Of a stretch of 64,000 nucleotides of DNA, positions 2,437 to 57,079 are shown piece by piece. Numbering within the stretch: position 1 is the first letter of the stretch; the number at the start of each line of letters is the position of its first letter. This DNA is from Belliella pelovolcani (lineage in GTDB: Bacteria; Bacteroidota; Bacteroidia; Cytophagales; Cyclobacteriaceae). The translations under genes were made by a program, and so were the position numbers. A model generated the notes under the pieces. That model saw only the letters and a list, made by a program, of their open reading frames with translations, ran no database searches and was not told the DNA's origin. The stretch covers positions 1-64,000 of the forward strand of contig NZ_FTOP01000012.1 of NCBI RefSeq assembly GCF_900156785.1, written 5' to 3'.

Positions 2437-2438
2437 TC

Positions 2439-5000: not shown

Positions 5001-5390
5001 ATGACGAGATTTTCTAAATCTGTAAACTTGACTTTTCCTAAAGTTGTATTTGATTCAAAACTCACTTCCATCTCTTCTAGAGCAAAGGCATACCAAAGTA
5101 GCACCAAAGCCACATCAAAGTAGTATCAAAGTAAGGGATAGTGCGAGCTTAGCTGTTTAAAAATGGTAAGGTATGATTTATTTACAACTAGAGATCTTTT
5201 TTTCCTCACTGAATGATCTTTAATTTTTGTTAAATAAAGAGTTAAGTTCTTAATAGACATTAAGGTAATAGTTTAATTTTGATGGAATTGAGTAAGTTTG
5301 GTAAGCTTATTTTGAATCATGGAAACAAAACGAGCTCAATCTGATATTTATTAAGAAAAATCATATTCTATCATTCTAAAGCTTTTTAAC
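5001..5390. other. intergenic region with four 11-bp tandem units
   Basis: There is no gene in this 390-bp stretch. Bases 5092-5135 hold four imperfect 11-bp units (accaaagtagc, accaaagccac, atcaaagtagt, atcaaagtaag). The rest is AT-rich and presumably carries the promoter of the S41 peptidase gene at 5391, but no clear box is visible. Confidence 0.5.
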
Positions 5391-29815: not shown

Positions 29816-30580
29816 ATGTCAATAACAAAAGAGTCAGAATTAATAGGAATGCAGCAAGTAAGCGAAGTTGTTGCGTATACTTTAAAAGAAATGAAGAATT
29901 ATGCAAAGCCTGGAATGTCTACCAAACAACTAGATGACTTTGGAGGAAAAATATTAAATGATTTCGGAGCAAACTCAGCACCTAACAAAACATATCAATT
30001 TCCTGGTTGGACTTGCATCAGTATTGATCAGGAGTTTTGTCATGGAATACCATCTCCAAACAAAATTTTAAAAGAAGGACAGTTGATAAATATTGATGTT
30101 TCGGCAGAGCTCCATGGTTTTTGGTCTGACAATGGGTGTTCTTTTGTGCTTGGTGAGGACAAATTTGGATATCAAACACTTGTGGATGCTTCAAAAGAAG
30201 TTTTAAAAAAAGCAATTTTAAACATCAAAGGTGGGGTCAGGATTGCAGACATTGGACAACTTATAGAGACTGAGGCAAAAAAGCGTGGATTTAAGGTAGT
30301 CAAGAATTTAACTGGGCATGGAATCGGAAGAAGTTTACACGAAGAGCCTTCAGAAATTGCCAACTTCGCAGATAAAAACAATAAGACCCGTTTCAAGAAA
30401 AATTCAGTAGTAGCTATAGAAACATTTATATCTACACATTCCAATTATGCGATAACCTTAGATGACGATTGGACTATGGTTGGGAATAAAGGTGGTTATA
30501 TGGCACAACACGAACATACTATCATAATAACGGACTCAAAGCCAATCATTCTGACGGAAAAAAATGAAATTTGGGGTTAG
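29816..30580 (+). CDS. map: methionine aminopeptidase, type I
   Basis: Removes N-terminal methionine from nascent proteins. The 254-residue length and the pita-bread fold motifs fit type I: His76 (CHGIPS), metal ligands Asp94 (INIDVS), Asp105 (WSDNG), His168 (GHGIGRSLHEEP), Glu202 (AIETF) and Glu233 (QHEHTII). All five metal ligands are in place at the usual spacing. The segment NIDVSAELHGFWSDNGCSF deviates from the more usual D.Tp..GYhGD.. sequence, so this is probably an additional copy rather than the one in the ribosomal protein operon (inference). Confidence 0.92.
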   Translation: MSITKESELIGMQQVSEVVAYTLKEMKNYAKPGMSTKQLDDFGGKILNDFGANSAPNKTYQFPGWTCISIDQEFCHGIPSPNKILKEGQLINIDVSAELHGFWSDNGCSFVLGEDKFGYQTLVDASKEVLKKAILNIKGGVRIADIGQLIETEAKKRGFKVVKNLTGHGIGRSLHEEPSEIANFADKNNKTRFKKNSVVAIETFISTHSNYAITLDDDWTMVGNKGGYMAQHEHTIIITDSKPIILTEKNEIWG

Positions 30581-30825
30581 GGTTTAGTGATTGTTTGATT
30601 CAGCATCGAATATTTTGGGTGTGGATAGTTACAGGCACTTAAAACTTTTAAAGGATTAGGAATTAGGAATTAGAAAATAAAATTTGAATGATCATCAACT
30701 AAATTCCTTACATTTACTTTGATCAGTGTTTTGTCATTGAATTAGAAAGGAAATATAAATACGTTTTTAAAAACATTCTTTTCTAAAAATGGAATAATCA
30801 ATTATTCAATTAAATAAGTTTTTAT

Positions 30826-31758
30826 ATGAAATTTTTCTTTAAATCATTTCTCTTTTTTCTCCTACTAAATGTATACAGCTGTTCTCCCATTGATGATTCC
30901 CAGAATATTACTGATGCATTGGAGTCTAACAAAATTGACTTAAGGATCAATGGTCAAAAACCCATTCATAGCATACGTGATTTGAGCGCTTCCTATTGTT
31001 GCAACAATGAATTAACTATATCTTTTCTTCATTGGGTTACCAGACCAAATGAATTGGATTATGGTGGTTCCGCTTTTGAATTGAAATTAGATAAAAACGG
31101 AAACATCCTGAGTCTATGGTATAAGGACTATACTGATCCAAACAATGAATTTTACAGTGCTTTCTTTACACCTATTTCAACTTTATGGATAGAAAGCTTT
31201 GAATACGTAGAGGATCAGAGGTTAAAGATGAAGATCTTCGGGAAACTATTTAAAAGAACAAGTAATTTTTTTGAAGAGCCAGAAGTTGTAGTGATTGATA
31301 CTGAAATTGAGATAAAGGAGTTTATTCCATGTAATTGTCTGTCCTTTATCAGCGAACTGACTACTGGAGTTCGGGATTTTGTATTTAATAGAATTACGAG
31401 AATAGAGCAGGATCAATCAATAAGTTATGAAGCATTTTCTACCAATGGTTATCAAATAGAATTCAGAAATTTTAAAGAAACCATCAATGAAATGCCTTTA
31501 GGGCTTTATATTTTTGATGAATTATCTACCACAGAGCGGATTGATTTCAAAAAATTCACTGGAGTACCAAGGGCATTCTATGCTGGGGTGATTCCAGAAG
31601 AATGGTATATTTATGACACCTCAGGCAGCTTTGAAATCATAAGTAAAATGCAGGTCAATGGTGAGCTTAATAGTACAGTCAGGATAAACTTTGTGGCTAC
31701 ACTCAACGGTGAAACGGTTATTGAATTTAAGGATGCCATATTAGAGACACAGCTTTAG
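30826..31758 (+). CDS. lipoprotein of unknown function
   Basis: A 310-residue lipoprotein (lipobox NVYSC, Cys about 19). The mature protein is beta-rich with pairs of cysteines near SASYCCNNELT (about 62-63) and IPCNCLSFIS. No family is recognised. It lies 69 nt upstream of the S41 peptidase gene in the same direction and may be transcribed with it. Confidence 0.65.
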   Translation: MKFFFKSFLFFLLLNVYSCSPIDDSQNITDALESNKIDLRINGQKPIHSIRDLSASYCCNNELTISFLHWVTRPNELDYGGSAFELKLDKNGNILSLWYKDYTDPNNEFYSAFFTPISTLWIESFEYVEDQRLKMKIFGKLFKRTSNFFEEPEVVVIDTEIEIKEFIPCNCLSFISELTTGVRDFVFNRITRIEQDQSISYEAFSTNGYQIEFRNFKETINEMPLGLYIFDELSTTERIDFKKFTGVPRAFYAGVIPEEWYIYDTSGSFEIISKMQVNGELNSTVRINFVATLNGETVIEFKDAILETQL

Positions 31759-31833
31759 GGCACTTAAAAACAGTATGATTTGAGAAAGGATATTAATTTT
31801 AAAAGATTGAATGTAAACTGATTCAGTTTGATA

Positions 31834-33282
31834 ATGATTAGAAAAAGAGTTAGTTGGATTTTGATTGCATCGCTCCTGATTGCTATCTCCTACTTTGCGA
31901 TGTTATCTGATCCAATGATTGATGAATCAATCAGTTTAGTCAATATTGATAGCTATATTTCAAAAATAGAAATGTCAAATGATATTGACAGCTTAACTTT
32001 TACTTTTGAAAAGGTTCACCCTAATCCTTACAGATTTTTTGAAAGGATGCATTTTCTTTCAAGAAGAGATGCTATTAAAAAAGAGCTTCCTGATAGCTTA
32101 AGTATTATAAACTTTTGGAGAATTATTGATCAGTTAATAATAGAGTATAATGATGCTCACTCCAATACTCATGATTCCTACATTCTCACTGATTATGTCA
32201 AAAAAGGGGGAAAGTTTTTCCCCTTTCCGGCTAAAATTTCAAATAAGCAAATCACCATTACTGGTGGCCACAGCATGTCGAGTACATTACCTCCTGGCAC
32301 TGAAATAATCAAAATAAATGGGAGGACTTCTGAGGAATTGATTTCAGACCTACTAAAGCATGCATCAAAAGAAACACAACCTTTAAAAGTTCTTGAAATC
32401 TCAGATGACTTCGGGTTTTACTTATGGAAATCTTACGAATGGGAGGCTGATTATCAAGTTCAATTTAAAAAGAATGAAGACTCAAGTATAGATTCAATAG
32501 AAGTAGAAGGAATTCTATGGAAAGACAGAATAAATTACAAAATCACAAATACTGAATCATACTCTTTCAAAGTATTGGAAGATAATGTAGGGTATATGAA
32601 AATTTCGGATTTTAATGGACATGAAAAAGATTATCAAGCTTTCTATAAGCACTCCTTTCAAACATTAAAAGACCTAAAGGCACGAGAATTAATTTTAGAT
32701 TTTAGAGGCCATGATGGTGGGGCTGATAGCTATGGGGAACATTTAGCAAAGTATATTGCACACAGGCCTTTCAGGAAGCTATCGAAAGCTCTTTGGAAAA
32801 TCACACCAGAATTCAAGGATGCATTTGATAAAAAGTTTATCCCCAAGAGTATCCGATGGTTCAAGCCAATATATTTGATAAATGAATATTCCCGCAATTT
32901 TTATGGAGCTAAGCCTTACGAATTAAAAAAAATAACTTATGACTTGAAAAATCCACTTCCAATCAATGAAAGGTTCGAGGGAAATGTATACCTAATTATT
33001 GACCACAATACTTTTTCTGCGGGATCAATTTTTGCAGAAATGTTTAAACATTATAACATGGGTAAGATCATAGGACAACCAACTGGAAATTTATATTCCT
33101 TCAATGGTTTTGCAATAGCAAATTTCACATTACCTAACTCAAAACTTACTTATCAAGTATCTTCAGTATATAATATTGCAAATAATGGTGAAGAGGGTCT
33201 AAAATCTGTTGAACCAGATGATCTTATTAATCAAGGAGTAGATCCTATAGCTTATATTTTTAGAGAATATATATTAAAATAA
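31834..33282 (+). CDS. S41 family peptidase, membrane-anchored
   Basis: The start is ATG 31834 (MIRKRVSWILIASLLIAIS); a TTG six bases upstream is less likely. The protein has 482 residues, an N-terminal membrane anchor or signal, a helical domain (about 40-110), a PDZ-like stretch (GTEIIKINGRTSEELI, about 165-180) and the S41 core (NVGYMKISDFNG, ELILDFRGHDGG). The nucleophile is in HNTFSAGSIFAEMF, and GQPTGN follows. It is the third S41 member in the window and the least similar to the other two. Confidence 0.84.
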   Translation: MIRKRVSWILIASLLIAISYFAMLSDPMIDESISLVNIDSYISKIEMSNDIDSLTFTFEKVHPNPYRFFERMHFLSRRDAIKKELPDSLSIINFWRIIDQLIIEYNDAHSNTHDSYILTDYVKKGGKFFPFPAKISNKQITITGGHSMSSTLPPGTEIIKINGRTSEELISDLLKHASKETQPLKVLEISDDFGFYLWKSYEWEADYQVQFKKNEDSSIDSIEVEGILWKDRINYKITNTESYSFKVLEDNVGYMKISDFNGHEKDYQAFYKHSFQTLKDLKARELILDFRGHDGGADSYGEHLAKYIAHRPFRKLSKALWKITPEFKDAFDKKFIPKSIRWFKPIYLINEYSRNFYGAKPYELKKITYDLKNPLPINERFEGNVYLIIDHNTFSAGSIFAEMFKHYNMGKIIGQPTGNLYSFNGFAIANFTLPNSKLTYQVSSVYNIANNGEEGLKSVEPDDLINQGVDPIAYIFREYILK

Positions 33283-42023: not shown

Positions 42024-43130
42024 TCAATTCATAAGGCTTATTTTATATATACAGGTATGCTTATATTCCATATCTGGTGACAATTTGGTAGATGGAAAAT
42101 CAGGTCTATTTGGAGAGTCGGGAAAATGCTGAGTTTCCAAACAAAAAGCCCCTCTATATTGATACCTTTTCTCTTCTTTACCTGTTATGCTATTATCTAG
42201 AAAATTTCCAGAATAAAACTGAATCCCTGGTTCATTGGTAAAAACTTCCATCACAATTCCTGATTTTGGCGCATAAATGCGAGCTGCTAATTCAATAACC
42301 TTATCACTCACACGATCAATTATCCAGTTATGATCATATCCACCGCCAAATTGTAATTGTTCATTTGGCATATTAATGTCACGCCCTATTTCCTTAGGAT
42401 TAGAAAAATCAAAAGGTGTTTCAAATACTGATTGAGGCTCCCCCATTGGGATTAAACCTTGGTCTACAGGAACATATTTAGCTGCATTCAACATTAAAGT
42501 ATGATCTAAAATATCCCCTTCACCAGCACCATTTAAATTAAAAAATGAATGATGAGTTAAGTTGACCACAGTAGTTCGATCTGTGAGAGCTTGGTAATTT
42601 ATTTTAAATTCATTGTCTTCTGTGAGTTCATACTTCATGATGACTTCAAGATTCCCTGGAAATCCCTCTTCTCCATCCATAGAAATATACTTGAAAGTAA
42701 TCGTAGATTGATCAAAAGTTAAGACCTCCCATTGCACATTATGAAAACCATTAGGTCCGCCGTGAAGAGAATTTTCACCATTATTCTTTTCTAAATGATA
42801 GTACTTCCCTTCGATTTGAAACCTTCCATTTGCAATTCTGTTTCCGTATCTTCCAATTGCGGCTCCAAAGTATGGCTCTGGACTCGTCTCGTAAGTATCG
42901 GGTGATTCAAATCCCAGTACGATATCGCGAAACTCACCATTCTTATCTTCCACCCAAAACTCCATAACCCTAGCACCAAAGTCTGTTACTTTTATTCTGG
43001 AACCTTGGTGATTTACTAACCAAAATATTTGATATTTTGAATCTGAGTAATCAGAGTTCGATTGGCTATTACAGTTCATTAGGGTGCTTATCATGATGAA
43101 CTGAAAAATAATCATCAGTAGTTTTTTCAT
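42024..43130 (-). CDS. aldose 1-epimerase (mutarotase)
   Basis: Interconverts alpha and beta anomers of aldoses. It has 368 residues with a lipoprotein signal (TLMNC, Cys20), so it acts in the periplasm or on the outer membrane. Family motifs: GAAIGRYGNRIANG, the general-acid His in VNLTHHSFFNL, GYDHNWIID, EVFTNEPGIQFYSGNFLD, and the base in FCLETQHFPDSPN. The gene overlaps the GH2 stop by 4 nt and is the last in the polysaccharide utilisation operon; it prepares released sugars for uptake. Confidence 0.93.
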   Translation of the reverse strand: MKKLLMIIFQFIMISTLMNCNSQSNSDYSDSKYQIFWLVNHQGSRIKVTDFGARVMEFWVEDKNGEFRDIVLGFESPDTYETSPEPYFGAAIGRYGNRIANGRFQIEGKYYHLEKNNGENSLHGGPNGFHNVQWEVLTFDQSTITFKYISMDGEEGFPGNLEVIMKYELTEDNEFKINYQALTDRTTVVNLTHHSFFNLNGAGEGDILDHTLMLNAAKYVPVDQGLIPMGEPQSVFETPFDFSNPKEIGRDINMPNEQLQFGGGYDHNWIIDRVSDKVIELAARIYAPKSGIVMEVFTNEPGIQFYSGNFLDNSITGKEEKRYQYRGAFCLETQHFPDSPNRPDFPSTKLSPDMEYKHTCIYKISLMN

Positions 43131-44986
43131 TGATTTATTTGAATTTCAAGATCATAAAGCTTCTGATGTAAACTTCTCAACCAATCCCTGTCAAGCTTAA
43201 TGACTTTCCGGTCATAAGTCATCAACCCATTTACTTCGATTTCAACATCAGTCGTTTGAGTATAAACAGCGGCGGATAAACCCTTTTGAATCAGTTCTTC
43301 TAATTTATCTATCAATTGTTTATATCTATTAGCCAAATCTTCCTTATCAGTGAAACTTTGATAGCCCCAATTGTCTTCATTTTGCCAAGTATGACCCGCA
43401 ATTGGTAATCCCAGTCCCCCGAATTCTCCAAGAACTAAGATATTATCTTTTCCAAAAATATTAGGGTCAGGCATTACTGCTTCAGGATAGCTGTGCAGAT
43501 CAATCATATGCCCTGTAATTTTAGAACCATCCATGATAAAATTTCCTCCACTCGCAGAATTGACAAGTCTGGTTTTGTCATAGTCTATGGTCCACTCGGT
43601 AACTTCCTTTGTATTGAACTGCCCCCATGCTTCATTGAATGGTACCCATACTACTATGGAAGGGAAATTGTAATTAGCATCTATGATCGCCTTCCATTCA
43701 TTTAGATAAATTTGCTCTGATTCCTGACTTCTTTGTTTGTCCGTGGCTTTTCCTACAATCCCAAGTCTATGCTCCCAAACATTTCCGTGATCACCATTGG
43801 GCATATCTTGCCATACTAGCATCCCTAACCGATCACAATGATAATACCACTGCGCAGGTTCGACCTTGACATGTTTTCTGATCATATTAAAACCCATTTC
43901 CTTGGTTTTCAAAATATCAAAAAGCATTGCTTCCTCATTGGGTGCAGTGTACAAACCATCTGGCCACCATCCCTGATCTAAAGGACCATATTGAAATAAG
44001 AATTCCCCATTAAGCATCATTCTTTGAATGCCGTTTTCATCTACTTCCTGACTGATTTTTCTCAATGCAGCATAACTGTAAACCTTATCCAATTCTTGAT
44101 CTCCCTGCATCAAAGAGATTTCAATGTCATAAAGGAAGGGGTCTTTGGGAGACCATTGCTTTGGATTTTGGATTTTTAACTCTGCCTTTTCTCCCGGGGT
44201 TACGGCTGTTTCAGCTACAAGCATTCCTTCATCCAGTGCTTTTACAACCACCTTATCTGCTACACTTTCACTAGAAATTATCGCCAAAACTTCAATTGTT
44301 TTCTTATCAAAGTCAGGAGTATTTTTCAAGGAACTTATATAAAACTCTGGTACTTCTTCGAGCCATACTGTCTGCCAAATTCCCGTAACAGGTGTATACC
44401 AAATTGAATTCGGTATGTTGACTTGCTTACCTCTAGGTTGAGGCCCTTGGTCTGATGGATCCCATACTCTAATACATAATTCTTGATCTTCGTCGGATAT
44501 TATAAAGGGTGTAATATCAAAAGAGAAAGGATCATAACCTCCTCTATGAACACCTATACTTTTCCCATTGACAAAAACTTCTGATTCCCAATCAACACCT
44601 CCAAAATGTAACAAAAAGCGCTTTCCATCTTGCAATGAATTCAAGCTCAAACTTCGTCTATACCAAAGTTCTTGATTTTCCCCAACTTTTCTCAATACGC
44701 CGGATAAATCAGATTCCACTGCAAATGGCACTCTAATCTGTCCATCAAATAAAGTGGGTAATTTTTCTCCCTTTGGTAAAATTGCATAGTCCCAAAATCC
44801 ATTGAGGTTTTCCCAGTTTGCTCTCTTCATTTGAGGTCTAGGATAAAAATCATGTCCAATTTCATCAGGATTTTCTACCCAGGGACTTTGAATGATAGGT
44901 TTTTGGAGTTCTTGATCATTTGTGAGCTCCTTGTTCAGGCAAGCACCAATTAAGAAAACTTGCAATAAAACTATTAGTCTTTTCAT
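43127..44986 (-). CDS. glycoside hydrolase family 2 enzyme, lipoprotein
   Basis: A 619-residue GH2 enzyme with lipobox IGAC (Cys16). Domains: N-terminal jelly-roll sugar-binding domain (about 50-220: NLNGFWDYAILPKGEK, YRRSLSL, FGGVDWESEVFVNGKSIGVHRGGYDPF), an Ig-like sandwich (about 220-320) and a TIM barrel from about 325. The catalytic acid/base is in VPFNEAWGQ and the nucleophile in LGEFGGLG. Family members are beta-galactosidases, beta-glucuronidases or mannosidases; the exact type is not decided. Operon: epimerase overlap 4 nt, upstream gene 7 nt away. Confidence 0.9.
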   Translation of the reverse strand: MKRLIVLLQVFLIGACLNKELTNDQELQKPIIQSPWVENPDEIGHDFYPRPQMKRANWENLNGFWDYAILPKGEKLPTLFDGQIRVPFAVESDLSGVLRKVGENQELWYRRSLSLNSLQDGKRFLLHFGGVDWESEVFVNGKSIGVHRGGYDPFSFDITPFIISDEDQELCIRVWDPSDQGPQPRGKQVNIPNSIWYTPVTGIWQTVWLEEVPEFYISSLKNTPDFDKKTIEVLAIISSESVADKVVVKALDEGMLVAETAVTPGEKAELKIQNPKQWSPKDPFLYDIEISLMQGDQELDKVYSYAALRKISQEVDENGIQRMMLNGEFLFQYGPLDQGWWPDGLYTAPNEEAMLFDILKTKEMGFNMIRKHVKVEPAQWYYHCDRLGMLVWQDMPNGDHGNVWEHRLGIVGKATDKQRSQESEQIYLNEWKAIIDANYNFPSIVVWVPFNEAWGQFNTKEVTEWTIDYDKTRLVNSASGGNFIMDGSKITGHMIDLHSYPEAVMPDPNIFGKDNILVLGEFGGLGLPIAGHTWQNEDNWGYQSFTDKEDLANRYKQLIDKLEELIQKGLSAAVYTQTTDVEIEVNGLMTYDRKVIKLDRDWLRSLHQKLYDLEIQINQ

Positions 44987-44993
44987 TGATTTC

Positions 44994-47018
44994 TTATTTA
45001 AAGTACCCCGAAGTTCTTCCCATGGTCAATAATTCCCAAATTGATGCAACTGTCCAGCCTGGAGCAAAAATATCGTTGTAAAATCCTTTACCATTTTTAC
45101 CATAATCCCAAGCCGTATGTTGTACTACTTCAGGATAATAGCCAGTCTTAGCTACTCCCATGAGGTTATCCTTGTGAGGGAGCAGTTGCTCTCTCATTGA
45201 AGATCTAATAACAGATGCATATTCACCAAAAACAGGTTCATTGGTCTCTTTAGCTAACCAATCTAAAACTTCATCAAATTCAAAGATGAATACATCAATG
45301 TGGTTGTTTTCTACTGATACATTTCCCCATCCTCTACTTTTAAGGCCAATATCACCAAGCATTTGGCCTTGAGCAAAAGGCACATCCCATGTGTAATACC
45401 AAGACAATGTAAAATAGGCGGCTTTCTTTGCGAGATTGATATAATGGAATCTCTCTTTTCCTTTTGTCACCATGGATAGATAATACATGGCCGTAGCTGC
45501 ATACAATGAAGCTTCCTTATCCTCACAATCAGCATCTAAAGTTGAAGAGAAATAATCTGATGGACCGATGATAGCTTCTTCTTGGTATATTGCCACTTTT
45601 CTAGCCACTTCCAAGTAACTTTTGTCCTTAAAATATTGAAAAGCCATAGTCAAGGGCAAGACTATAGACGGTGTACTACCTCCTGTTTCATCAATAACAT
45701 TAAGATTTTTATCAAATTTTCTTGGAAAACTTCCATCTTGAAATTGAAGGCTTATAAGTCTTGAAAATAAGGTTTGAACTTTTTTTTCTAATACCTGATG
45801 ATTTCGACCTTTAGATTTTTCATAATTCAAAAAAAGTAAAAAGGCATAAAGTCCCTCAGATTGCCTTCTAATGGAAAAAACATCAGTTTCTGATTTTTTA
45901 TCAAAATCCACTACTTCACGGATCAAGCCTTCTTGATTAAATCCATTTTGGGTATAGCTTTGAAAAACAGCATAGGCCATTTGAAGGAGCTCATCGTCTT
46001 TATGACTTTCAGCGTATTCCAAAGCATTGAAAGCATTGAGCAGCACCCTACCAATAAATCCAACCTCCAATATTCCTGTGGATTCACATGTAGCAGTCTC
46101 TAAGTGAACTCCTGAAAACCCCTTCAATTCTCCAAAATCCACAAAAGAAGACTTAAAGTAATGCGTAAGCGTTTCCTTAATTTGATTGTCATTAAATTTT
46201 TGCTCTGCTATGGGTTGAGGGCTCAATAAATCCATGGAATAATGCCAAATGTCAGCTACAAAATCTGAAAAGTCCGTAGCTTGATGTTTTTTCACGCTGT
46301 AGTTTAACCACTTTTCTTGCCCTTCCTTCAAAAAAGCAAAAGCGGTTACTGGATCAGCTAAAGTGAGCTTTCTAATGTAAGTAAAAGGTCTTTCTGCGTA
46401 GGGGAAAGCATATTCGAGGAAAGTAAAGTCTTCAGTTTTACCAAAGCCCAAAGCCCCAAGGTCTGAATCACCAGAAAGTATTACTTCACCGGCTTCATGA
46501 GTAGTTAAGGCGATTTTTTCAATTTGGTCTTTTCTTATCAAACTGTAGCCTATGTTTTTATCGGGACAATATACGCTAACCAAAGGTGTGCTTAGCCTAT
46601 CTTCCCTTACAAGCCAGTCTGAAGCTTCTCTAATGGAAGGGGCATTGTCAGGAGATCTTAGATTCTTTCTATACCAATATCCAGGCATTAAAATTTGAGA
46701 AGGCTCAAAGTCAACATCTTCAAATAAAATCTTGGATGAGAAGTTAAAATAAACATTTTCACGTGCAACCAATTTGATTTTTACATCAATATATTCTTTT
46801 GATTCTACAGTCTCAACAGCTATATCTATAGGTATTGAAGAAGTTGCAATAAACTTACCATGTTGATCCAATAAAACCTGATGTTGAGTAGAATGGTTAC
46901 CTGGATTTTTAATGTTGATGCTAAATTTACTGTTTTTAAGAAAGTCAAAAACTGCTTCTGCTTTTGTGAATGAATTGGATACCAATAATATTAGTAGCGA
47001 TAATAATAGCTGCTTCAT
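44994..47018 (-). CDS. secreted protein of the polysaccharide locus with helical toroid-like domain, unassigned
   Basis: A 674-residue protein with signal peptide ending TKAEA. Residues about 25-240 are beta-rich (a sandwich-like N-terminal domain); about 255-670 are helices in repeated hairpins with aromatic and acidic residues: CESTGILEVGFIGRVLLNAF, DGSFPRKFDKN, DADCEDKEASLYAATAMYYL, SVENNHIDVFIFEFDEVLDWL. This build (beta domain plus alpha/alpha toroid) is that of several glycoside hydrolase and lyase families, but I recognise none. Position between GH43 and GH2 in one operon makes a carbohydrate-active role likely. Confidence 0.75.
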   Translation of the reverse strand: MKQLLLSLLILLVSNSFTKAEAVFDFLKNSKFSINIKNPGNHSTQHQVLLDQHGKFIATSSIPIDIAVETVESKEYIDVKIKLVARENVYFNFSSKILFEDVDFEPSQILMPGYWYRKNLRSPDNAPSIREASDWLVREDRLSTPLVSVYCPDKNIGYSLIRKDQIEKIALTTHEAGEVILSGDSDLGALGFGKTEDFTFLEYAFPYAERPFTYIRKLTLADPVTAFAFLKEGQEKWLNYSVKKHQATDFSDFVADIWHYSMDLLSPQPIAEQKFNDNQIKETLTHYFKSSFVDFGELKGFSGVHLETATCESTGILEVGFIGRVLLNAFNALEYAESHKDDELLQMAYAVFQSYTQNGFNQEGLIREVVDFDKKSETDVFSIRRQSEGLYAFLLFLNYEKSKGRNHQVLEKKVQTLFSRLISLQFQDGSFPRKFDKNLNVIDETGGSTPSIVLPLTMAFQYFKDKSYLEVARKVAIYQEEAIIGPSDYFSSTLDADCEDKEASLYAATAMYYLSMVTKGKERFHYINLAKKAAYFTLSWYYTWDVPFAQGQMLGDIGLKSRGWGNVSVENNHIDVFIFEFDEVLDWLAKETNEPVFGEYASVIRSSMREQLLPHKDNLMGVAKTGYYPEVVQHTAWDYGKNGKGFYNDIFAPGWTVASIWELLTMGRTSGYFK

Positions 47019-47026
47019 AGAATCAA

Positions 47027-48094
47027 TTATTTAAATTTTGGAGCGGGCTGACTAGTGATACTTGGAGTCCCTGATTGAATACTTGGCCATCCATCGACCC
47101 AGATAATTTTATCCAACAATAGTGGCCTTCTGCTAGCCCCATTCTGTAAGAGCGGGTTATTTTTGGGGATTGCATGATAAAGAAGCCAATCTTGTCCTTC
47201 TTCATCAGTCATAATATGACCATTGTGACCAGGACCTACAAAGCCGAATGACTCCGCATTTCTGGATAAAATGATTTCACCATAAGGTCCATCTTTGATA
47301 TCATTTCCAGACTTATCTAAATAGGGCCCTAATAAATTTTCAGAAACTGCGACCCTTAATCGGTATGTACTATTTCCACCATCACAGCAAGATCCTTCTG
47401 AACCAAAATAATAGTACTTACCATTTTTTTTGAATATATAAGATGCTTCAAGATGATTGTGGCCTATATGTATTTTTTCACCTATGACTTGTCTACCATT
47501 CTCACTTAGCTCTACAGCATATATTCCGTGAAAGCTCCCCCAGAAAAGGTATTTTTTGTCATTATCTTCAATGTAGAAAGCATCAATTGAATTGGTAACT
47601 CCAATTTCATCAGAAAGGAAGAGTTTTCCTTGGTCTATAAACGGTCCTTCTGCCCTACTTGCTATTGCTAATCCAATCCCTGGGTTGGGATCTCCCCAAG
47701 TTGAATAAGAATAATACATGAAATATTCTTCACCAACTTTGGCAACATCGGGTGCCCAAAGACCTCCTTGATCTTTCCATGTTGGTTTGGTAATAAAAGC
47801 ATTTCTAACAAATTCCCAAGAGACCAAATCTTTGGATCTTATAATAGGGACTAATTTGTGACCTCCTTCACTTCCCCAATTGTCTTCCGTACCATATGCA
47901 TAGTAAAATTCACCATCTTTCAAGACCGATGGATCTGCAAGTACAGGTTCAAAAACAGGGTTTACATAGTTTTTTTGAACTGGTGTCGTATCGTTTTCTT
48001 CAATATCAGGGATTTGCGGATCTGGATCACTACAACTAAATCCTACTAAAAGGAATAGTATTAGAAAACTAAAAACCAAAGATAAATACTTCAT
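47027..48094 (-). CDS. glycoside hydrolase family 43 enzyme, lipoprotein
   Basis: A 355-residue GH43 five-bladed propeller with lipobox VGFSC (Cys21). Catalytic residues: base Asp54 (LADPSVLKDGEFYYAYG), the pKa-modulating Asp in NSIDAFYIEDNDKKYLFWG, and the acid Glu in LEASYIFKKNGKYYYFGS. WAPDVAKVGEEYFMYYS is also typical. Family activity is alpha-L-arabinofuranosidase, endo-arabinanase, beta-xylosidase or galactan 1,3-beta-galactosidase; the subfamily cannot be decided here. It follows susD after a hairpin. Confidence 0.9.
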   Translation of the reverse strand: MKYLSLVFSFLILFLLVGFSCSDPDPQIPDIEENDTTPVQKNYVNPVFEPVLADPSVLKDGEFYYAYGTEDNWGSEGGHKLVPIIRSKDLVSWEFVRNAFITKPTWKDQGGLWAPDVAKVGEEYFMYYSYSTWGDPNPGIGLAIASRAEGPFIDQGKLFLSDEIGVTNSIDAFYIEDNDKKYLFWGSFHGIYAVELSENGRQVIGEKIHIGHNHLEASYIFKKNGKYYYFGSEGSCCDGGNSTYRLRVAVSENLLGPYLDKSGNDIKDGPYGEIILSRNAESFGFVGPGHNGHIMTDEEGQDWLLYHAIPKNNPLLQNGASRRPLLLDKIIWVDGWPSIQSGTPSITSQPAPKFK

Positions 48095-48173: not shown

Positions 48174-49703
48174 TTACCAGCCAGGATTTTGACTCATGTT
48201 AGTATTAATATCTAAATCTCGCTGTGGTATTGGGAGAAACTCATGTCTTCCAATGACAAAATTGTTGAAATTCGGTTCCCTTGAAGCTAAGCCTGAACCT
48301 AGGTCACCCCATCTTGCTAGATCTGACCATCGGTGACCTTCCCCAGAAAGTTCTAATAACCTCTCATGCTTAATTTGTTCTAAGAATTCATTTTGACCCA
48401 TTCCAGGCTTAATTGTTGACAGAGCAGGTAGACCAACTCTTGCTCTTACGCGATCTACATGAGCATATGCTTGGCTTGTCCTACCCGTAGCATTTAATAC
48501 TTCGGCATACATCAATAGCACATCTGCATACCTGATTACTCTATAATTATTCGGAGATCTAAACCCTTCATCATTCTTCCAATGATCATTCAAAAACTTC
48601 CTAAAGAATACCCTTGAATTATTAAGTCCATATCTTTGGGCAAATGTCTGACCATAAATTTGAGTAAACTCAGGACCTCTTTCATCGGTGTTGGAGAATA
48701 AAAATGATGCAGCAAGTCTTGGATCCCTTGCATCATTTGTAGTTCTTTCTTTTAAAAATTCTGCAATCATCCACGTTCTAGCTTCTGCATCCGTAAAGCC
48801 AATTCCTGGAGGAGCAAAGAACTGAGCAATAGAAGTACCATAATTGTGATTTGGGGTACTCACATCATTATCTGTCACCTCTGTAGGATTGACTGTAAAT
48901 TGCCACTCAAATATAGACTCTTGATTATTCTCACTTGTGATGAGGAAATTATCTCGATAATTAGGCATCAAATTATAGACTGATGCTCCTTCACCGTTCA
49001 CAAGCCAATTTAAAGGTGTTTCCGCCTCGTTCATTTTACCCTGCTGCATTAAGGTTTTGGCAAGCAAAGCTTGGGCTGCGCCTTTGGTGACTCTTCCTAA
49101 ATCTCTACTATTGGGATAAACGGTAGGAAGCCCATCCACAGCTCTACTTAAATCTAACTCTACCTGATCCCAAACTTCAGCTTGATTGCTTGTTGAAGGA
49201 AGATCTGTTGGTTTAGAAGTTTCTAACATCAAAGGGACATTACCCCATAATAATGCAAGGTTATAGTAAAAATACCCTCTTAGAAAGTAAGCTTCTCCCA
49301 ATAGCCGAGCTTTCAGGGTATTATCCATTTCAATATTTGGAACATTATCTAGGACTTGATTGGCTCTGAAAATTCCCACATAACAATCCACCCAAACATC
49401 AATCACAGGTCCGAAATTATAATCTGGCTGAATGAATCCACCCATTGCATTGGCGAGGTCAGACCATGGGCTACCTGAAAAACCTTCGTCAGATCGAGTG
49501 ATGTGAAGCATAGGCATCCATCTAGACATTCCTGGTCTTGCAAAAGTCGAGTAGATTGCATTGACTCCCTGTTCGGCATCTGTGGCATTTTGCCAGAAAA
49601 CCTCCATAGTAGGTTGATTTGGATTGATAATATCTAATTCTGGATTACAGCTTAATACACCGACTGAAGCTGCTATCAATATATATTTAGAAATATTTTT
49701 CAT
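48174..49703 (-). CDS. susD: SusD/RagB family glycan-binding lipoprotein
   Basis: A 509-residue surface lipoprotein (lipobox GVLSC, Cys19) that binds the target glycan and forms the lid on its SusC partner. TPR-like motifs and family signatures: AEQGVNAIYSTF, RANQVLDNVPNI, LLGEAYFLRGYFYYNLALLWG, RYADVLLMYAEVLNATG, ERLLELSGEGHRWSDLARWG and the ending LPIPQRDLDIN. It lies 17 nt downstream of susC. Confidence 0.95.
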   Translation of the reverse strand: MKNISKYILIAASVGVLSCNPELDIINPNQPTMEVFWQNATDAEQGVNAIYSTFARPGMSRWMPMLHITRSDEGFSGSPWSDLANAMGGFIQPDYNFGPVIDVWVDCYVGIFRANQVLDNVPNIEMDNTLKARLLGEAYFLRGYFYYNLALLWGNVPLMLETSKPTDLPSTSNQAEVWDQVELDLSRAVDGLPTVYPNSRDLGRVTKGAAQALLAKTLMQQGKMNEAETPLNWLVNGEGASVYNLMPNYRDNFLITSENNQESIFEWQFTVNPTEVTDNDVSTPNHNYGTSIAQFFAPPGIGFTDAEARTWMIAEFLKERTTNDARDPRLAASFLFSNTDERGPEFTQIYGQTFAQRYGLNNSRVFFRKFLNDHWKNDEGFRSPNNYRVIRYADVLLMYAEVLNATGRTSQAYAHVDRVRARVGLPALSTIKPGMGQNEFLEQIKHERLLELSGEGHRWSDLARWGDLGSGLASREPNFNNFVIGRHEFLPIPQRDLDINTNMSQNPGW

Positions 49704-49720
49704 GATTGATTTGCTAATAA

Positions 49721-52700
49721 TTAAAACTCAAACTGTAAGCCTAAAGAATAAATCCTACTTGCTGGCCAATTGCCATTGTCAAATCCTCTTTCTAAGATTC
49801 CATTTCCTGTCACATCAGGGTCTAGTCCAGAGTATTTTGTGAACGTGAGCAAATTCTGTCCACTTATAAAAAGTCTTGCATTGCTTACCTTCCATTTCTC
49901 AAAACTGGCCAAATTTAGATTATAACCAATTTCTAGGTTTCTTAACCTAACGTAAGAACCATCTTCTAGCCATCGATCACTTTCTAATCTTGCATTATCA
50001 ATTAATCCTGGATCACCTACTGCAACACCGATTCTAGGATCTGAAGTGTTTGTATTTTGTGGAGACCAAGGGCTTATATCAGCTCTGAAATTTGTATTTT
50101 GATAACTATCTATTTCCCTTCTAACCCCATTCATAATGGTATGACCGAAAACTCCCACCCATTGCATGTTTAATGTGAAATTCCTATATGAAGCATTGAA
50201 CTGGGCACCGGTTTGGAGTGTTGGCCATGGAGATCCTACAAAAGTTCTATCTTCTTGATTGATCTCACCATCTCCATTGATATCTACAAATTTGATGTCA
50301 CCTGGTCTGGCAAAAGGTTGGATAACCTGTCCATTAGCATTAGTATAGTTATTGATCTCTTCCTGACTTTGGAAAAGACCATCAGTTTTCAGAACGTACC
50401 ATTCTCCTAGTGGCCTCCCAATTTGGGATCTTGTCAGGCCAGTTTGAATGTAATTAATACCCTCTCCAAGGTTTCCTACATCCATTACTCTATTTCTGAT
50501 GGTGGTCATATTCGCAGAGACTTCCCACTTCAACTCTCTTTTCATATTTCTGTAAGTTGCAGCGATTTCTACACCTCTGTTTCTAATTGAAGCGGCATTT
50601 ACAGCAGGCTCCCCTCCAAGATTTCCCAAGTACCATGCGATAGGGAGATTTACCAAAACGTCTTGTGAAAGAGAATTATAGTATTCAGCAGATAGAATCA
50701 ATTGATCCTCGAAAAACCCTGCATCGAAACCGAAATTTTGACTAATTCTCCTCTCCCACCCAAGATTTGGGTTTGCAAGTCTAGCTTGTGTAGCCCCAAC
50801 ATTAGGCTGTTCGTCAGGCCCAAAAATTGCTCTTGGATTTGAATTGAGGAAACCTATATAATCCCAAGCTCCAACAGTAACGATCCCTAATTCACCATAT
50901 GATGCTCTAAGTTTCAAATCAGAAATTAAGGATGAATTGAAAAATGATTCTTCCGAAATTCTCCAACCTCCAGCAATAGACGGGAAGAATTTAGATCTAT
51001 TGGCAGATCCAAATCTAGAGTCTGCATCATATCTTCCTGTCAAGGTTAGTAAATACCTGTCATCATAGGTGTAATTTGCTCTTCCCAAAAAGCCAGATAT
51101 AGTATACTGAAAGGGGATAAAACCATCAGCAATAGCTTCTCCTGTAGCTGAGCTTACAGTATTCAAATACCTGCCATCAAAGGACTGGAGATCTGTTCTT
51201 CCAGCAGAAAGCACATCCCTTTTAGTGATTTGTTGAGAATGACCTACAACTGCAGATATACTATGTTTATTTATAACTTTATTATAGTTTATGGTATGTT
51301 CGAGCAAAAAGCTAGAAAACAAAGATCTATCCTCGATAATACTTGTAGGGGCAGCTGGTTGATTAAAGTACCACTCCCCAGCTCTTCTCATTCTTTTATT
51401 ATGATCGAAGCTCAGCTCAGCACCAGCATTGAACCTATACACCAAGCCTTCAAGGATATCCACATCCAAATATGCATTACCAACTAATTTGGCAAAGTTA
51501 CTTCTAAAGCTATTGATAGCATTTACTGCCAATGGGTTCCAAGCGTAAGTGACTGCGTCTGTAGTTCCGATTCCCCAGCCATCTGGATTAGCAGCTGTGA
51601 TATAACGACTATCTTGAACAGGAATAACAGGGAGGTGTAGTGGCATATCGTAAAAAGGATTTCCAGTACCTGGGGCATTTGTTATTGAGTTGGTAAAAAC
51701 TAAATTTTCACCAAAGGTCACCCTACCTTTTGTATTCTTTGTATTGATTCTTAGTGCTGCCCTTTGAAAGTCATTTCCAATTAGAACACCCTTATTCACA
51801 AAATACGATCCAGAAATCAAGTAACTAGATGATTTTGATCCACCTGAAAGTGTAATGTTATAATCTTGAGCATTTCCAAGTCTTGTACCTTCATTATACC
51901 AATTCGTATTAATAGCAGGGTCAAATGCAGTGGCAACACTTGAAGGAGGTGTTAAACCAGAGTTTAAAAACTGAGTTCTTTGCAATTCAGCAAATTCAAC
52001 ATTGTTCATCATATTGTACCCTTGCGGCAATTGTTGAATCCCATATTTTGCTGAAATACTTACTCTAGGAGTACCTTCTGCTCCTTGCTTCGTTGTGATG
52101 ATAATCACTCCGTTTGCAGCTCTAGAGCCATAAATAGCCGCTGCTGATGCATCTTTTAAGATTTGAATCGATTCAATATCATTGGTATTGATAGTTGGGT
52201 TGGCGTCAGCAATCATTCCATCTATTACATACAGCGGACTTGAATTGATAAAACTAGCAACCCCCCTAATTTCTACTTGAGCATTTTGGCCAGGAGCACC
52301 ACCATTTCTTACAGAAACACCTGGAGCTAGCCCTTGCAAAGATTCACCTAATGAAGCTGCGGTAACTCTACTTTGCTTGTCAGTACCAACAACTGCTGTT
52401 GCACCAGTCAAATCCTTTTTTTTGACTGTTTGATACCCGATTACAACGACCTCCTCTAAGTCGCTTAAGTCTTCTTCAAGTTCAACACTTACTGATGATC
52501 TTCCCAGTAGTGGTATTTCTCTTTGAAGAAAGCCTATAAATGAAAAAACTAAAGTGCTTTGATCATTGGATACATTCAATTGAAAATTCCCATCTATGTC
52601 AGTGACGGTACCGTTGGAAGTGCCCTTCTCAATTACTGTTACACCTGGAAATACTTCACCAGTTGATTTTTCAAGGACAGTTCCTCTAATAATTTGTTGA

Positions 52701-52780
52701 TTTTGCGCCCTAAGAGGCGGGTAATTACAACCTAGAAAGAACAGCAGCAGTAATGCTGATAATTGTAACTTTTTTTTCAT
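49721..52780 (-). CDS. susC: SusC/RagA family TonB-linked outer-membrane transporter
   Basis: A 1019-residue TonB-dependent transporter for oligosaccharides. Signal peptide ending LRAQ; carboxypeptidase-regulatory-like domain (about 30-105: GTVLEKSTGEVFPGVTVIEKG, DIDGNFQLNV); TonB box region LEEVVVIGYQTVKKKDLTGA; plug with the SusC signature IQILKDASAAAIYGSRAANGV; then the 22-strand barrel ending YSLGLQFEF. There is no N-terminal secretin/TonB short domain, so control by an anti-sigma is not expected; the divergent HTCS gene is the likely regulator. Confidence 0.96.
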   Translation of the reverse strand: MKKKLQLSALLLLFFLGCNYPPLRAQNQQIIRGTVLEKSTGEVFPGVTVIEKGTSNGTVTDIDGNFQLNVSNDQSTLVFSFIGFLQREIPLLGRSSVSVELEEDLSDLEEVVVIGYQTVKKKDLTGATAVVGTDKQSRVTAASLGESLQGLAPGVSVRNGGAPGQNAQVEIRGVASFINSSPLYVIDGMIADANPTINTNDIESIQILKDASAAAIYGSRAANGVIIITTKQGAEGTPRVSISAKYGIQQLPQGYNMMNNVEFAELQRTQFLNSGLTPPSSVATAFDPAINTNWYNEGTRLGNAQDYNITLSGGSKSSSYLISGSYFVNKGVLIGNDFQRAALRINTKNTKGRVTFGENLVFTNSITNAPGTGNPFYDMPLHLPVIPVQDSRYITAANPDGWGIGTTDAVTYAWNPLAVNAINSFRSNFAKLVGNAYLDVDILEGLVYRFNAGAELSFDHNKRMRRAGEWYFNQPAAPTSIIEDRSLFSSFLLEHTINYNKVINKHSISAVVGHSQQITKRDVLSAGRTDLQSFDGRYLNTVSSATGEAIADGFIPFQYTISGFLGRANYTYDDRYLLTLTGRYDADSRFGSANRSKFFPSIAGGWRISEESFFNSSLISDLKLRASYGELGIVTVGAWDYIGFLNSNPRAIFGPDEQPNVGATQARLANPNLGWERRISQNFGFDAGFFEDQLILSAEYYNSLSQDVLVNLPIAWYLGNLGGEPAVNAASIRNRGVEIAATYRNMKRELKWEVSANMTTIRNRVMDVGNLGEGINYIQTGLTRSQIGRPLGEWYVLKTDGLFQSQEEINNYTNANGQVIQPFARPGDIKFVDINGDGEINQEDRTFVGSPWPTLQTGAQFNASYRNFTLNMQWVGVFGHTIMNGVRREIDSYQNTNFRADISPWSPQNTNTSDPRIGVAVGDPGLIDNARLESDRWLEDGSYVRLRNLEIGYNLNLASFEKWKVSNARLFISGQNLLTFTKYSGLDPDVTGNGILERGFDNGNWPASRIYSLGLQFEF

Positions 52781-53032: not shown

Positions 53033-56000
53033 ATGCGAAAGCACATAATTGCCACAATTTTAATAATATGCTTCAGTATAGTTTCGATGAGAACTAATGC
53101 TCAGCGTTCATATTTTCGGCACTTAAATATGGAGAATGGGTTAAGTCACAATACAATCTTCACAATTCATCAAGATCAGCTTGGCTTCATGTGGTTTGGA
53201 ACCAAAGATGGGCTAAACAGATATGATGGACATCAGTTTAAAATCTTCAAAAACATCCCAGGAGATCCATCCAGTTTAAAAAACAACCACATTCTATCAC
53301 TTTTTGAAGGAAAAGATAATAATCTCTGGGTAGGGACAAATGATGGAGTATCTATTTACTACCCAGGGTTGGAGCAATTCAAAAACTTTGAAGCAGTTGA
53401 TCAGAATGGTGATAAAGTATGGGGTCAAATTTTAAAAATCAAGGAAGATCAGCATGGTCAAATATGGATTGCTTCTAGCTCAGCAGGACTTTATAAATAT
53501 CATATTGAGAAAGAAACCCTAACCAGATATTATCATGATCCGAATAACTCTAAGACATTGGGTTCTGGATCTGTTTCATCTTTAACTATTGATAAAGATG
53601 GTAATATTTGGGTTGGAATTCTTGGGGGAGGTGTGGAGAAATACCTACCAAATAATGACTCTTTTTTAAATTACCCAAATGCTACTTTAACCTTAAAAAA
53701 AGACTTAATTCTTGACCTATATGATCATGGTGAAGACCTACTTATAGGAACAAAAAATAATGGGGTAAAAATTTTCAATAAGAATGATGGCTCTATTCAG
53801 AATCTTTTAAATAAAGATGCTGAAGGGAATCCACTATTTGTAAGAAACATTATTCAAACGGATTTGGAGGAAATTTATATTGGGACAGAGTTGGGAGTCT
53901 TTATTTATGATTTTAAAACAAAAAATTTCAATCACCTTACCCAAAATCCAAACGACCCATATAGCTTATCTGATAATGCTACTTATTCAATATACAAGGA
54001 TAACGAAGGAGGAATATGGATAGGCACATACTTTGGCGGTTTAAACTATTTATCAAGCACATCAGCTAATTTTGAAAAATACTACCCCATCATCAATAAG
54101 GATTCGCCAAAAGGAAAACGAGTTCGAGAGATTGTTGAAGATCAGTACGGTATTATTTGGGTAGGAACAGAAGATGCAGGATTGAGCAAGTTTGACCCCA
54201 AAACACAAAAATTTAAAAATTACTTACCAGAAAAGGGGAAAAATTCGCTGAGCTACCATAATGTACATGGGCTGATGATTGATGGCAGAAATCTTTGGAT
54301 TTCAAGTCATAGCCAAGGGTTAAGAGTGGATATTCTTAACCTTTCTGACAATTCATTCAAAAAACTTGATCAATCTGCCCTACAAAATCCACTTTTTGAT
54401 ACGGATATATTCTCAATTTTTAAAGATTCAAAAGGAAATAAGTGGTTTGGAACCATTTCTGGAGTTTACAGGATGGCCTCTGGAGAAAATGAAATGAAAT
54501 TTTTCAAGGATTTAAGTATTAGTTTTTATTATGACATCATTGAAGATCATGCTGGAAATATCTGGTTTGCCACTATCAATAATGGGTTATTCCGTCTAAG
54601 TCCAATCGATGGTAAAATTGATCATTTTTTACCAGACACAATTTCTGGGGATGGATTACCTGGTATATCTATCATTTCACTTTTTGAAGATAGTAATCAA
54701 AGAATTTGGGTAGGTACAGAAGGCTATGGTCTAGGATTATTTGATCCAAAAAAAAATCAATGGAGTGTATTCAAGCAGTCTGATGGTTTACCAAGCAATA
54801 CAATATATAAAATATTGGAAGATGATGCTGAATATCTTTGGATAAGTACAGGTAATGGTTTGGTAAGATTCAACCCAAACAACAAAAGTATAGAAAGGTA
54901 TAGCAAATCTGATGGATTGCTATCAGATCAATTTAATTATAAGTCTGGTTTAAAAGCTAGTGACGGCACTTTGTATTTTGGAACATTGAATGGTTTTGTC
55001 TCATTTAATCCAACCACGTTGACCAAGCAACCAAATTCTCCAAAGCTTATTCTTACTGGAATAAAGCTATTTAATGAAGAATTATTTGTTGGTTCGGGTG
55101 ATGGAATTTTAAAATCCTCCATCACCTCTACCAAATCAATTTATCTTTCCCATGATCAATCTTCATTGAGTTTTTCATTTGCAGCACTCAGTTATTCTTC
55201 TCCAGAATCTTGGAAGTACCTCTACAAATTGGAAGGATTAGAAAAGGATTGGAATGTATTAGAAAAAAATAATGATGTTTCATACTTGAACATCCCTCCT
55301 GGTACTTACAAGTTCGTTGTCAAAACGATCACTGACAATGGAGAAATCAATCAAGAAGAAGCTTCACTGAATATTAAAATAACACCTCCTTTTTACTTTT
55401 CTAAAATTGCCTACACCCTTTATTCATTAATTTCAGCCTCCATCTTATTTGGAAGTATACTTTTATATAGAAAAAGAATTCAAAAAAGACATCAAAAAAA
55501 TATTGAAAGTTTAGAGTCTCAGAAGGAGAAAGAAATATTTAATGCTAAGATTGAATTTTTTACCAATATCACCCATGAAATCAGAACTCCATTAACTTTA
55601 ATTAAAGGGCCTTTGGAAGTCATGCTAAAGAAAGAAAATTTCCAGGAGCAGGAGACGAAAGAGAATCTCAAAATCATGGAAAAGAATGCCGATCGTTTAA
55701 TTCATTTGAGCAATCAGCTTTTGGATTTTCGCAAAGCAGAAAAGCAAAGCTTTCGACTTAATTTCGTGAAAATAGATATTTCTAGGCTACTACAAGATAT
55801 TCAATATAGATTCAAGCCACTAGCTGAAAAAGATCAAATTTTCTTCAAGCTTACCGGAGTTGAGAATTCCTTTTTTGCTGATGTAGATCAAGAAGAGCTA
55901 ATAAAAATCATCAGTAACTTGGTAACTAATGCTTTCAAATATGCTACACATCAAGTAATTATAGACTTGATTATAGAGAGCGGAGAATATTTTCTAATCG

Positions 56001-57079
56001 TTGTCAGCAATGATGGGCCATTGATCAATAAAGCTTATAGAGATAAAATATTTGAACCTTTTTACCAAATTGACCCAGAGGAAACTCAAAAACCTCGTCA
56101 AGGGACTGGATTGGGATTACCCTTGGCTAGATCATTAGCAGAGATGCACAAAGGTTTTCTTTATTATGAAGATAAACATCTTGTAGGCTTAAACTCATTC
56201 ATTCTAAAGCTTCCAGTTAGACAAAGTCATACTTTTTTTATTGACGAGAATCAAGCAAACTTAGACGATAATAAAATAGATTCTGAAGCAATTGAAAGGA
56301 TAAAAATAACTACCGATGTCAGACAAACTATTTTAATTGTAGAAGATAATAAAGAGCTTCAGTCCTTTATTGAATCAAACCTTAAGTATGACTATCATAT
56401 GCTAAAAGCAAGTCATGGCTTAGATGCTATTGCGCTTTTGGAACACCATCAAGTAGACTTGATCATTTCTGACATAATGATGCCAATGATGGATGGAATT
56501 GAATTGTGTCAACATATTAAATCAAATTTAATTTATTCGCATATTCCATTGATTTTACTTACAGCTAAAAATAGTATTCAGTCAAAAATTGAAGGGCTTG
56601 AAGTAGGAGCAGATGTATACATTGAAAAGCCATTTTCATTAGAGTATTTGGTTTTACAAGTGAAAAACCTCCTTAAATATAGGGATCAGGTTAGAGATAG
56701 TTTTGCAAATTCTCCAGGAGTTTTATCTGTAAGCATAGCTCACACAAAGGCTGATGAGGTGTTTTTGGAGGAAGTCAACAGGCTAATTTCAAATCATATT
56801 TCCAATGAGCAGTTTGGCGTAAATGAATTAGCTGAAATTCTAAATATGAGTCAATCCAGTCTCTTGAGAAAAATCAAAGGAATTTCAAAATTAACTCCGA
56901 ATGAATATATCAGACTTGTCAGGTTAAAAAAGTCTGCGGAGTTGCTTAGCACAGGTAAATATAGTGTTGCAGAAGTATGTGATTTGGTTGGCTTTAATTC
57001 ACCAAGTTATTTTTCAAAATGCTTTCAAAAACAATTTGGCGAGCTTCCAAAAGATTACCAGAAATCGGAAAGAAGTTGA
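53033..57079 (+). CDS. hybrid two-component system sensor/regulator (HTCS)
   Basis: A 1348-residue one-chain two-component system that switches on the divergent polysaccharide operon. Order: signal peptide (1-24), two propellers with repeated blades (GLMWFGTKDGL, GNIWVGILGGG, RIWVGTEGYGLG), Y_Y_Y domain (about 705-785), transmembrane helix (about 795-815), HisKA with His848 (NITHEIRTP), HATPase (NLVTNAFKY, GTGLGLPLARSL), receiver with Asp1147 (LIISDIMMP) and AraC-type HTH (about 1240-1345: GVNELAEILNMSQSSLLRKIKG, SVAEVCDLVGFNSPSYFSKCFQKQFG). All domains and key residues are intact. Intergenic distance to susC is 252 nt. Confidence 0.96.
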   Translation: MRKHIIATILIICFSIVSMRTNAQRSYFRHLNMENGLSHNTIFTIHQDQLGFMWFGTKDGLNRYDGHQFKIFKNIPGDPSSLKNNHILSLFEGKDNNLWVGTNDGVSIYYPGLEQFKNFEAVDQNGDKVWGQILKIKEDQHGQIWIASSSAGLYKYHIEKETLTRYYHDPNNSKTLGSGSVSSLTIDKDGNIWVGILGGGVEKYLPNNDSFLNYPNATLTLKKDLILDLYDHGEDLLIGTKNNGVKIFNKNDGSIQNLLNKDAEGNPLFVRNIIQTDLEEIYIGTELGVFIYDFKTKNFNHLTQNPNDPYSLSDNATYSIYKDNEGGIWIGTYFGGLNYLSSTSANFEKYYPIINKDSPKGKRVREIVEDQYGIIWVGTEDAGLSKFDPKTQKFKNYLPEKGKNSLSYHNVHGLMIDGRNLWISSHSQGLRVDILNLSDNSFKKLDQSALQNPLFDTDIFSIFKDSKGNKWFGTISGVYRMASGENEMKFFKDLSISFYYDIIEDHAGNIWFATINNGLFRLSPIDGKIDHFLPDTISGDGLPGISIISLFEDSNQRIWVGTEGYGLGLFDPKKNQWSVFKQSDGLPSNTIYKILEDDAEYLWISTGNGLVRFNPNNKSIERYSKSDGLLSDQFNYKSGLKASDGTLYFGTLNGFVSFNPTTLTKQPNSPKLILTGIKLFNEELFVGSGDGILKSSITSTKSIYLSHDQSSLSFSFAALSYSSPESWKYLYKLEGLEKDWNVLEKNNDVSYLNIPPGTYKFVVKTITDNGEINQEEASLNIKITPPFYFSKIAYTLYSLISASILFGSILLYRKRIQKRHQKNIESLESQKEKEIFNAKIEFFTNITHEIRTPLTLIKGPLEVMLKKENFQEQETKENLKIMEKNADRLIHLSNQLLDFRKAEKQSFRLNFVKIDISRLLQDIQYRFKPLAEKDQIFFKLTGVENSFFADVDQEELIKIISNLVTNAFKYATHQVIIDLIIESGEYFLIVVSNDGPLINKAYRDKIFEPFYQIDPEETQKPRQGTGLGLPLARSLAEMHKGFLYYEDKHLVGLNSFILKLPVRQSHTFFIDENQANLDDNKIDSEAIERIKITTDVRQTILIVEDNKELQSFIESNLKYDYHMLKASHGLDAIALLEHHQVDLIISDIMMPMMDGIELCQHIKSNLIYSHIPLILLTAKNSIQSKIEGLEVGADVYIEKPFSLEYLVLQVKNLLKYRDQVRDSFANSPGVLSVSIAHTKADEVFLEEVNRLISNHISNEQFGVNELAEILNMSQSSLLRKIKGISKLTPNEYIRLVRLKKSAELLSTGKYSVAEVCDLVGFNSPSYFSKCFQKQFGELPKDYQKSERS

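Follow-up and report, generated by a model that had tools for sequence, protein, structure and literature searches.

Described furanosidases and the operon of Belliella pelovolcani

The closest described system is that of Bacteroides finegoldii DSM 17565, in which BACFIN_04787, a previously unidentified exo-beta-D-galactofuranosidase published in 2023, is presented as the founder of family GH182 (PMC10115798). As described in that paper, this enzyme exo-releases galactose from beta-1,5/1,6-D-galactofuranan and, together with the GH43_31 enzyme BACFIN_08810, the two being encoded in two PULs, hydrolyses galactan completely (PMC10115798). A second point of comparison is the Streptomyces beta-D-galactofuranosidase of PDB entries 9j6m/9j6n: 9J6M is assigned to GH2_18 and its group is reported to act on alpha-L-Araf and beta-D-Galf, while alpha-L-arabinofuranosidases are included in GH2_18/GH2_19 (PMC12243196). 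A text match to 'GH182' in PMC11653859 was set aside, since the matched string is 'GH18_2' minus its underscore.

The window, i.e., the whole stretch of 64,000 nucleotides of B. pelovolcani DNA that was analysed, carries an operon in the order SusC, SusD, GH43, a 674-aa protein, GH2 and GalM, with an HTCS gene in divergent orientation. Its features are the following:

42024..43130, minus strand: galactose mutarotase (GalM), last gene of the operon (Pfam Aldose_epim, E 2.2e-85)
43127..44986, minus strand: GH2 enzyme, GH2_18-like, probable furanosidase (Pfam GH2 domains; phmmer to 9j6n)
44994..47018, minus strand: 674-aa protein, predicted secreted GH182 exo-beta-D-galactofuranosidase (ORF, homology, AlphaFold2 model)
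45513..45536, minus strand: candidate catalytic motif D-x4-D-x-E, codons 495-502, D495 to E502 (conservation)
47027..48094, minus strand: GH43 enzyme of 355 aa, probable partner (Pfam PF04616, E 3.8e-53)
48174..49703, minus strand: SusD-like glycan-binding lipoprotein (Pfam SusD_RagB, E 6.8e-40)
49721..52780, minus strand: SusC-like TonB-dependent transporter (NCBIfam TIGR04056, 802 bits, over cut-off)
53033..57079, plus strand: HTCS, divergent (Pfam Reg_prop, Y_Y_Y, HisKA, HATPase_c, Response_reg, HTH_18)

The original prediction had described a real 674-residue frame of no nameable family, surrounded by operon genes that all belong to known classes, and these points hold. The frame runs on the minus strand between the GH2 gene (ending at 44986, 7 nt away) and the GH43 gene (starting at 47027, 8 nt away), and the other genes code for GalM, GH2, GH43, SusD, SusC and, in the divergent orientation, a hybrid two-component regulator. 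The 674-aa protein gave zero matches in Pfam at E<=10, a search in which the GH43 and GH2 domains of its neighbours and the GH76 and GH127 domains were likewise absent from it, and zero matches in NCBIfam at E<=1. Among PDB sequences, phmmer and profile searches returned nothing meaningful, only LanC-like proteins at E 0.18-0.95, a link that was taken as chance, the toroid being common to both. By eye, the protein starts with what looks like a Sec signal peptide and has no lipobox. A single scan over genome contigs yielded 162 relatives, the best 80 of which were kept; in an 80-row alignment (A1; the 674-aa protein plus L002-L081 minus L070), the 79 aligned members of these best 80 have identities of 49-72% to it, and 145 columns are invariant. 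Given this number of relatives, this identity and these invariant columns, the ORF is no chance frame. The protein is very probably a carbohydrate-active enzyme.

Regarding its neighbours, the closest named PDB enzyme to the GH2 protein is the Streptomyces beta-D-galactofuranosidase 9j6n (phmmer E ~2e-138, with the NE and GE motifs aligned), an enzyme that is thus close to the neighbouring GH2 but differs from the 674-aa protein in fold and family. GalM scores 340.7 bits with the NCBIfam model PRK11055 (galactose-1-epimerase), over the cut-off of 240, and 359.2 bits with TIGR02636, below the cut-off of 397.65.

Probable correspondence with GH182 of Bacteroides finegoldii

The genome of B. finegoldii contains three homologues of the 674-aa protein, on contigs C33, C30 and C15. 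The C33 homologue (100889-102919) lies in a PUL and is 53.0% identical to the 674-aa protein over its full length (679 alignment columns), and the C15 homologue also lies in a PUL, with an adjoining GH43 gene. The third (C30:62454-64502, L093) has an HTCS gene beside it and a SusC-like gene beyond, and no GH43 gene stands close by.

Locus tags were related to these contigs by a map in which the 33 contigs represent the scaffolds sorted by size, the tags being assumed to run along them from the largest. The outer anchors of the map were also assumed, namely that 04787 is the C33 homologue and 08810 the GH43 gene of C15, and one point tests it. This point is the PL27 gene of B. finegoldii, given as BACFIN_07013 in PMC8377490, for which a position at ~26 kb on C26 was fixed beforehand; a homologue of 5no8 was found at 30416-32500 (1041.7 bits), the test having compared with 5no8 this one ORF among the four that measure 600-780 aa in C26:1-80000. 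The position error for BACFIN_07013 is thus 4.0 kb over 4.89 Mb, and leave-one-out errors for the three tags are 8.9, 4.0, and 7.2 kb. Since the tags expected from the map are ~4779 for the C33 homologue, ~5922 for that on C30, and ~8811 for that on C15, the C33 homologue alone fits 04787, and the GH43 gene of C15 stands at the expected place of 08810, the published GH43_31. Moreover, the remaining enzymes encoded in the PUL on C33 fall into the named families GH65, GH43, and GH31, and no other unclassified enzyme-sized protein was found in this PUL, which leaves the C33 homologue as the unclassified exo-galactofuranosidase. These results are consistent with the C33 homologue being BACFIN_04787, an indirect assignment made by scaffold order and elimination.

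The 674-aa protein is therefore most likely a member of GH182, through its homology to the gene so mapped, and the proposal that it represents a new CAZy family gives way to this assignment. The PULs of both proteins share GH43, SusC/D, and HTCS genes, whereas that of BACFIN_04787 has GH65 and GH31 where the window operon has GH2 and GalM. Were the tag map misleading, the protein would instead fall in a sister family of GH182 that CAZy has yet to name. The identification of BACFIN_04787 by map instead of sequence, together with the lack of any Pfam or NCBIfam model matching the 674-aa protein, speaks for such a sister family, but the held-out predictions fall within 9 kb for three tags, one of them fixed beforehand, and the matching PUL offers no second unclassified protein of enzyme size, so that we hold this explanation to be quite unlikely. 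Taken as a whole, the reading of the protein as a periplasmic GH182 exo-beta-D-galactofuranosidase in a Galf-glycan utilization locus of Bacteroidota is highly likely.

Predicted fold and candidate catalytic residues

The AlphaFold2 model of the 674-aa protein (mean pLDDT 85.6, pTM 0.88) places beta-sandwich strands in residues 30-246 and an (alpha/alpha) helical toroid in residues 250-673, with low-confidence stretches at 567-574 and 631-648, and so agrees, as a model, with the two-part build that had been read from the sequence. In the family alignment, most positions of these two poorly modelled loops are invariant. The resemblance to glycosidases and lyases in general also stands; the best whole-length fold match is a PL27 enzyme. 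This enzyme, the L-rhamnose-alpha-1,4-D-glucuronate lyase BACCELL_00875 (5no8), has the same two-domain build, is the top Foldseek match (E 1.8e-10, TMq 0.43), and is aligned by VIA-align over residues 22-669 (Z 24.0, rmsd 6.4, 481 residues aligned), as would be expected of a related polysaccharide lyase. However, 5no8 is 9-10% identical, has another chemistry, and does not appear at E<=10 in either the phmmer or the profile searches; numerous glycosidases and epimerases that share this toroid reach equal or higher scores, and the operon is without uronate-specific genes, which makes a PL27-related lyase very improbable indeed. Among these proteins, the N-acylglucosamine/cellobiose 2-epimerases (Z up to 27.4 in VIA-align) and GH76 enzymes resemble the toroid over residues 271-671 (Z 21-27) at 7-13% identity, while the beta-sandwich of the 674-aa protein falls outside the aligned range. 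Function is not given by the common fold.

Invariant acidic residues, a point that the original prediction had named for checking, do exist in the family: D495, D500, E502, E570, D575, E630, and D638 are identical in 80/80 members, and a catalytic role is attributed to some of them here as candidates. The columns were also compared between 11 family members (the 674-aa protein and 10 of the other 79) and 11 distant relatives; in the latter, D495, D500, and E502 are kept in 11/11 and D575 and E630 in 10/11; E570 and D638 are family-invariant but not conserved among these relatives. D500 and E502 are, judging from this conservation, the likeliest candidate catalytic pair. Hydrolysis would most likely be acid-assisted and take place at the toroid mouth, where the cluster of D495, D500, and E502 could be aided by D575 and E630. 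No published catalytic residues were found for GH182, nor was a solved GH182 structure found among the PDB sequences searched, so that the AlphaFold2 model and the candidate motif provide a starting point.

The distant relatives constitute a broader unnamed family (L082, L084, L085, L179-L186; ~670-800 aa) that also has the D-x4-D-x-E motif. Two of them score over a Pfam cut-off, L180 with the GH127 catalytic domain (30.7 bits, cut-off 24.9) and L181 with GH76 (36.2 bits, cut-off 25.9). The others gave nothing over cut-off, several having no Pfam match at all (9 of the 11 were run against Pfam and 8 against NCBIfam); neither of the two searched against the PDB had a match. These 11 proteins provide no family name for the 674-aa protein. 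Within the motif, Cys498 is present in 80/80 family members and in 4/11 distant relatives. A cysteine acts as nucleophile in GH127. GH182 and its unnamed distant relatives might thus form a beta-sandwich/toroid superfamily with a D-x4-D-x-E centre, with Cys498 of GH182 as the nucleophile of a retaining furanosidase and with GH43 and GH182 as one processing unit, a composite idea that we consider rather unlikely.

Substrate, partner enzymes and distribution

For the locus as a whole, the following sequence of events can be proposed. The HTCS regulator would sense a galactofuranose-containing glycan, oligosaccharides would be imported by SusC/SusD, and the GH43 enzyme, the GH182 protein, and the GH2_18-like enzyme would take furanose units off the non-reducing ends; the galactose so freed could then be mutarotated by GalM and enter the Leloir pathway. 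We infer the periplasmic location, the galactofuranosidase activity, and the catalytic residues of the protein, as well as the source of the substrate. The genome of the window contains matches to galactokinase and galactose-1-phosphate uridylyltransferase, and in homologous loci galactokinase is found inside the locus in four cases and GalT in three.

To an enzyme, the rings of beta-D-Galf and alpha-L-Araf resemble each other. A protein that is GH182 by sequence could accordingly have alpha-L-arabinofuranosides as its main substrates, the locus then serving plant glycans that contain L-arabinose; the window GH43 has endo-arabinanases as its nearest PDB relatives, and the group of the neighbouring GH2 has alpha-L-arabinofuranosidases, as stated in PMC12243196. 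Nevertheless, the operon has GalM and not arabinose genes, GalK/GalT occur in some related loci, the nearest named structure of the GH2 is a galactofuranosidase, and the mapped GH182 founder is reported to be active on galactan (PMC10115798), so that arabinofuranosides are an unlikely main substrate. Since the window GH43 is near endo-arabinanases and only 26% identical to the GH43 of C15 (mapped to BACFIN_08810), some arabinofuranose work may still take place within the operon. D-galactofuranose-containing glycans are the more likely substrates, ahead of the arabinan, arabinogalactan, and glucuronidated glycans suggested originally. An arabinan reading by way of BT0350, a suspected relative, was dropped, BT0356-BT0350 being described as an arabinose utilization operon (PMC5061871).

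With the assignment to GH182, a former 'unknown' in a PUL of Bacteroidota becomes a predicted galactofuranosidase, and a substrate class becomes likely for the whole operon. Galactofuranose is not known to occur in mammals. Because of this absence and of the presence of the sugar in the mycobacterial cell wall (the latter according to PMC10115798), GH182 enzymes are useful tools.

Gene neighbourhoods were counted in 78 homologous loci, i.e., without the locus of the window itself (L001), L070 (broken frame), L082 (distant), and L048 (in which a longer overlapping frame was called). A GH43 gene, in a single-linkage cluster that mixes several GH43 kinds, stands on the same strand within five genes in 69/78 of these loci and is the immediate neighbour in 50/78. 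SusD is present in 50 of the loci, SusC in 48, a GH2 of the window type in 23, and GalM in 19. Moreover, fused GH43-GH182-type frames of 981-1022 aa occur in four of the sampled Bacteroides genomes (L189:459-3503, L190:1631-4564, L191:1561-4497, L192:1736-4723), the extra N-terminal part being GH43 in 4/4 long frames examined; the window GH43 has 43-46% identity to three of these GH43 domains, and the remaining one represents a different kind of GH43. Such fusions support, at the level of gene architecture, a joint action of both enzymes. On the short Alistipes contig L048, an open frame of 1461 codons (946-5330) overlaps the GH182-type gene in a different frame.

The distribution of the family is patchy. 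Matches were found in 4/395 genomes of a phylum-wide sample, the full-length match being confined to the window's own genome, in 23/245 genomes of the window's taxonomic family (4 of them weak), and in 64/149 genomes of the genus of B. finegoldii (1 of them weak).

Other arrangements were observed among these loci. A BNR_2 protein of ~547 aa that may represent another furanosidase family (L013:8249-9892, and 12 further loci) adjoins the GH182-type gene in 11/78 loci. One genome (G513) encodes a GH2 protein that resembles the sequence of PDB 7sf2, an enzyme of B. cellulosilyticus, without being identical to it, and the recognition of this genome as that species was dropped. Finally, the same genome has two GH182-type PULs ~37 kb apart on the same contig (C2:847687-849714 and 885168-887198), the second of them lying near a GalM gene and a GH2 gene of the window type.
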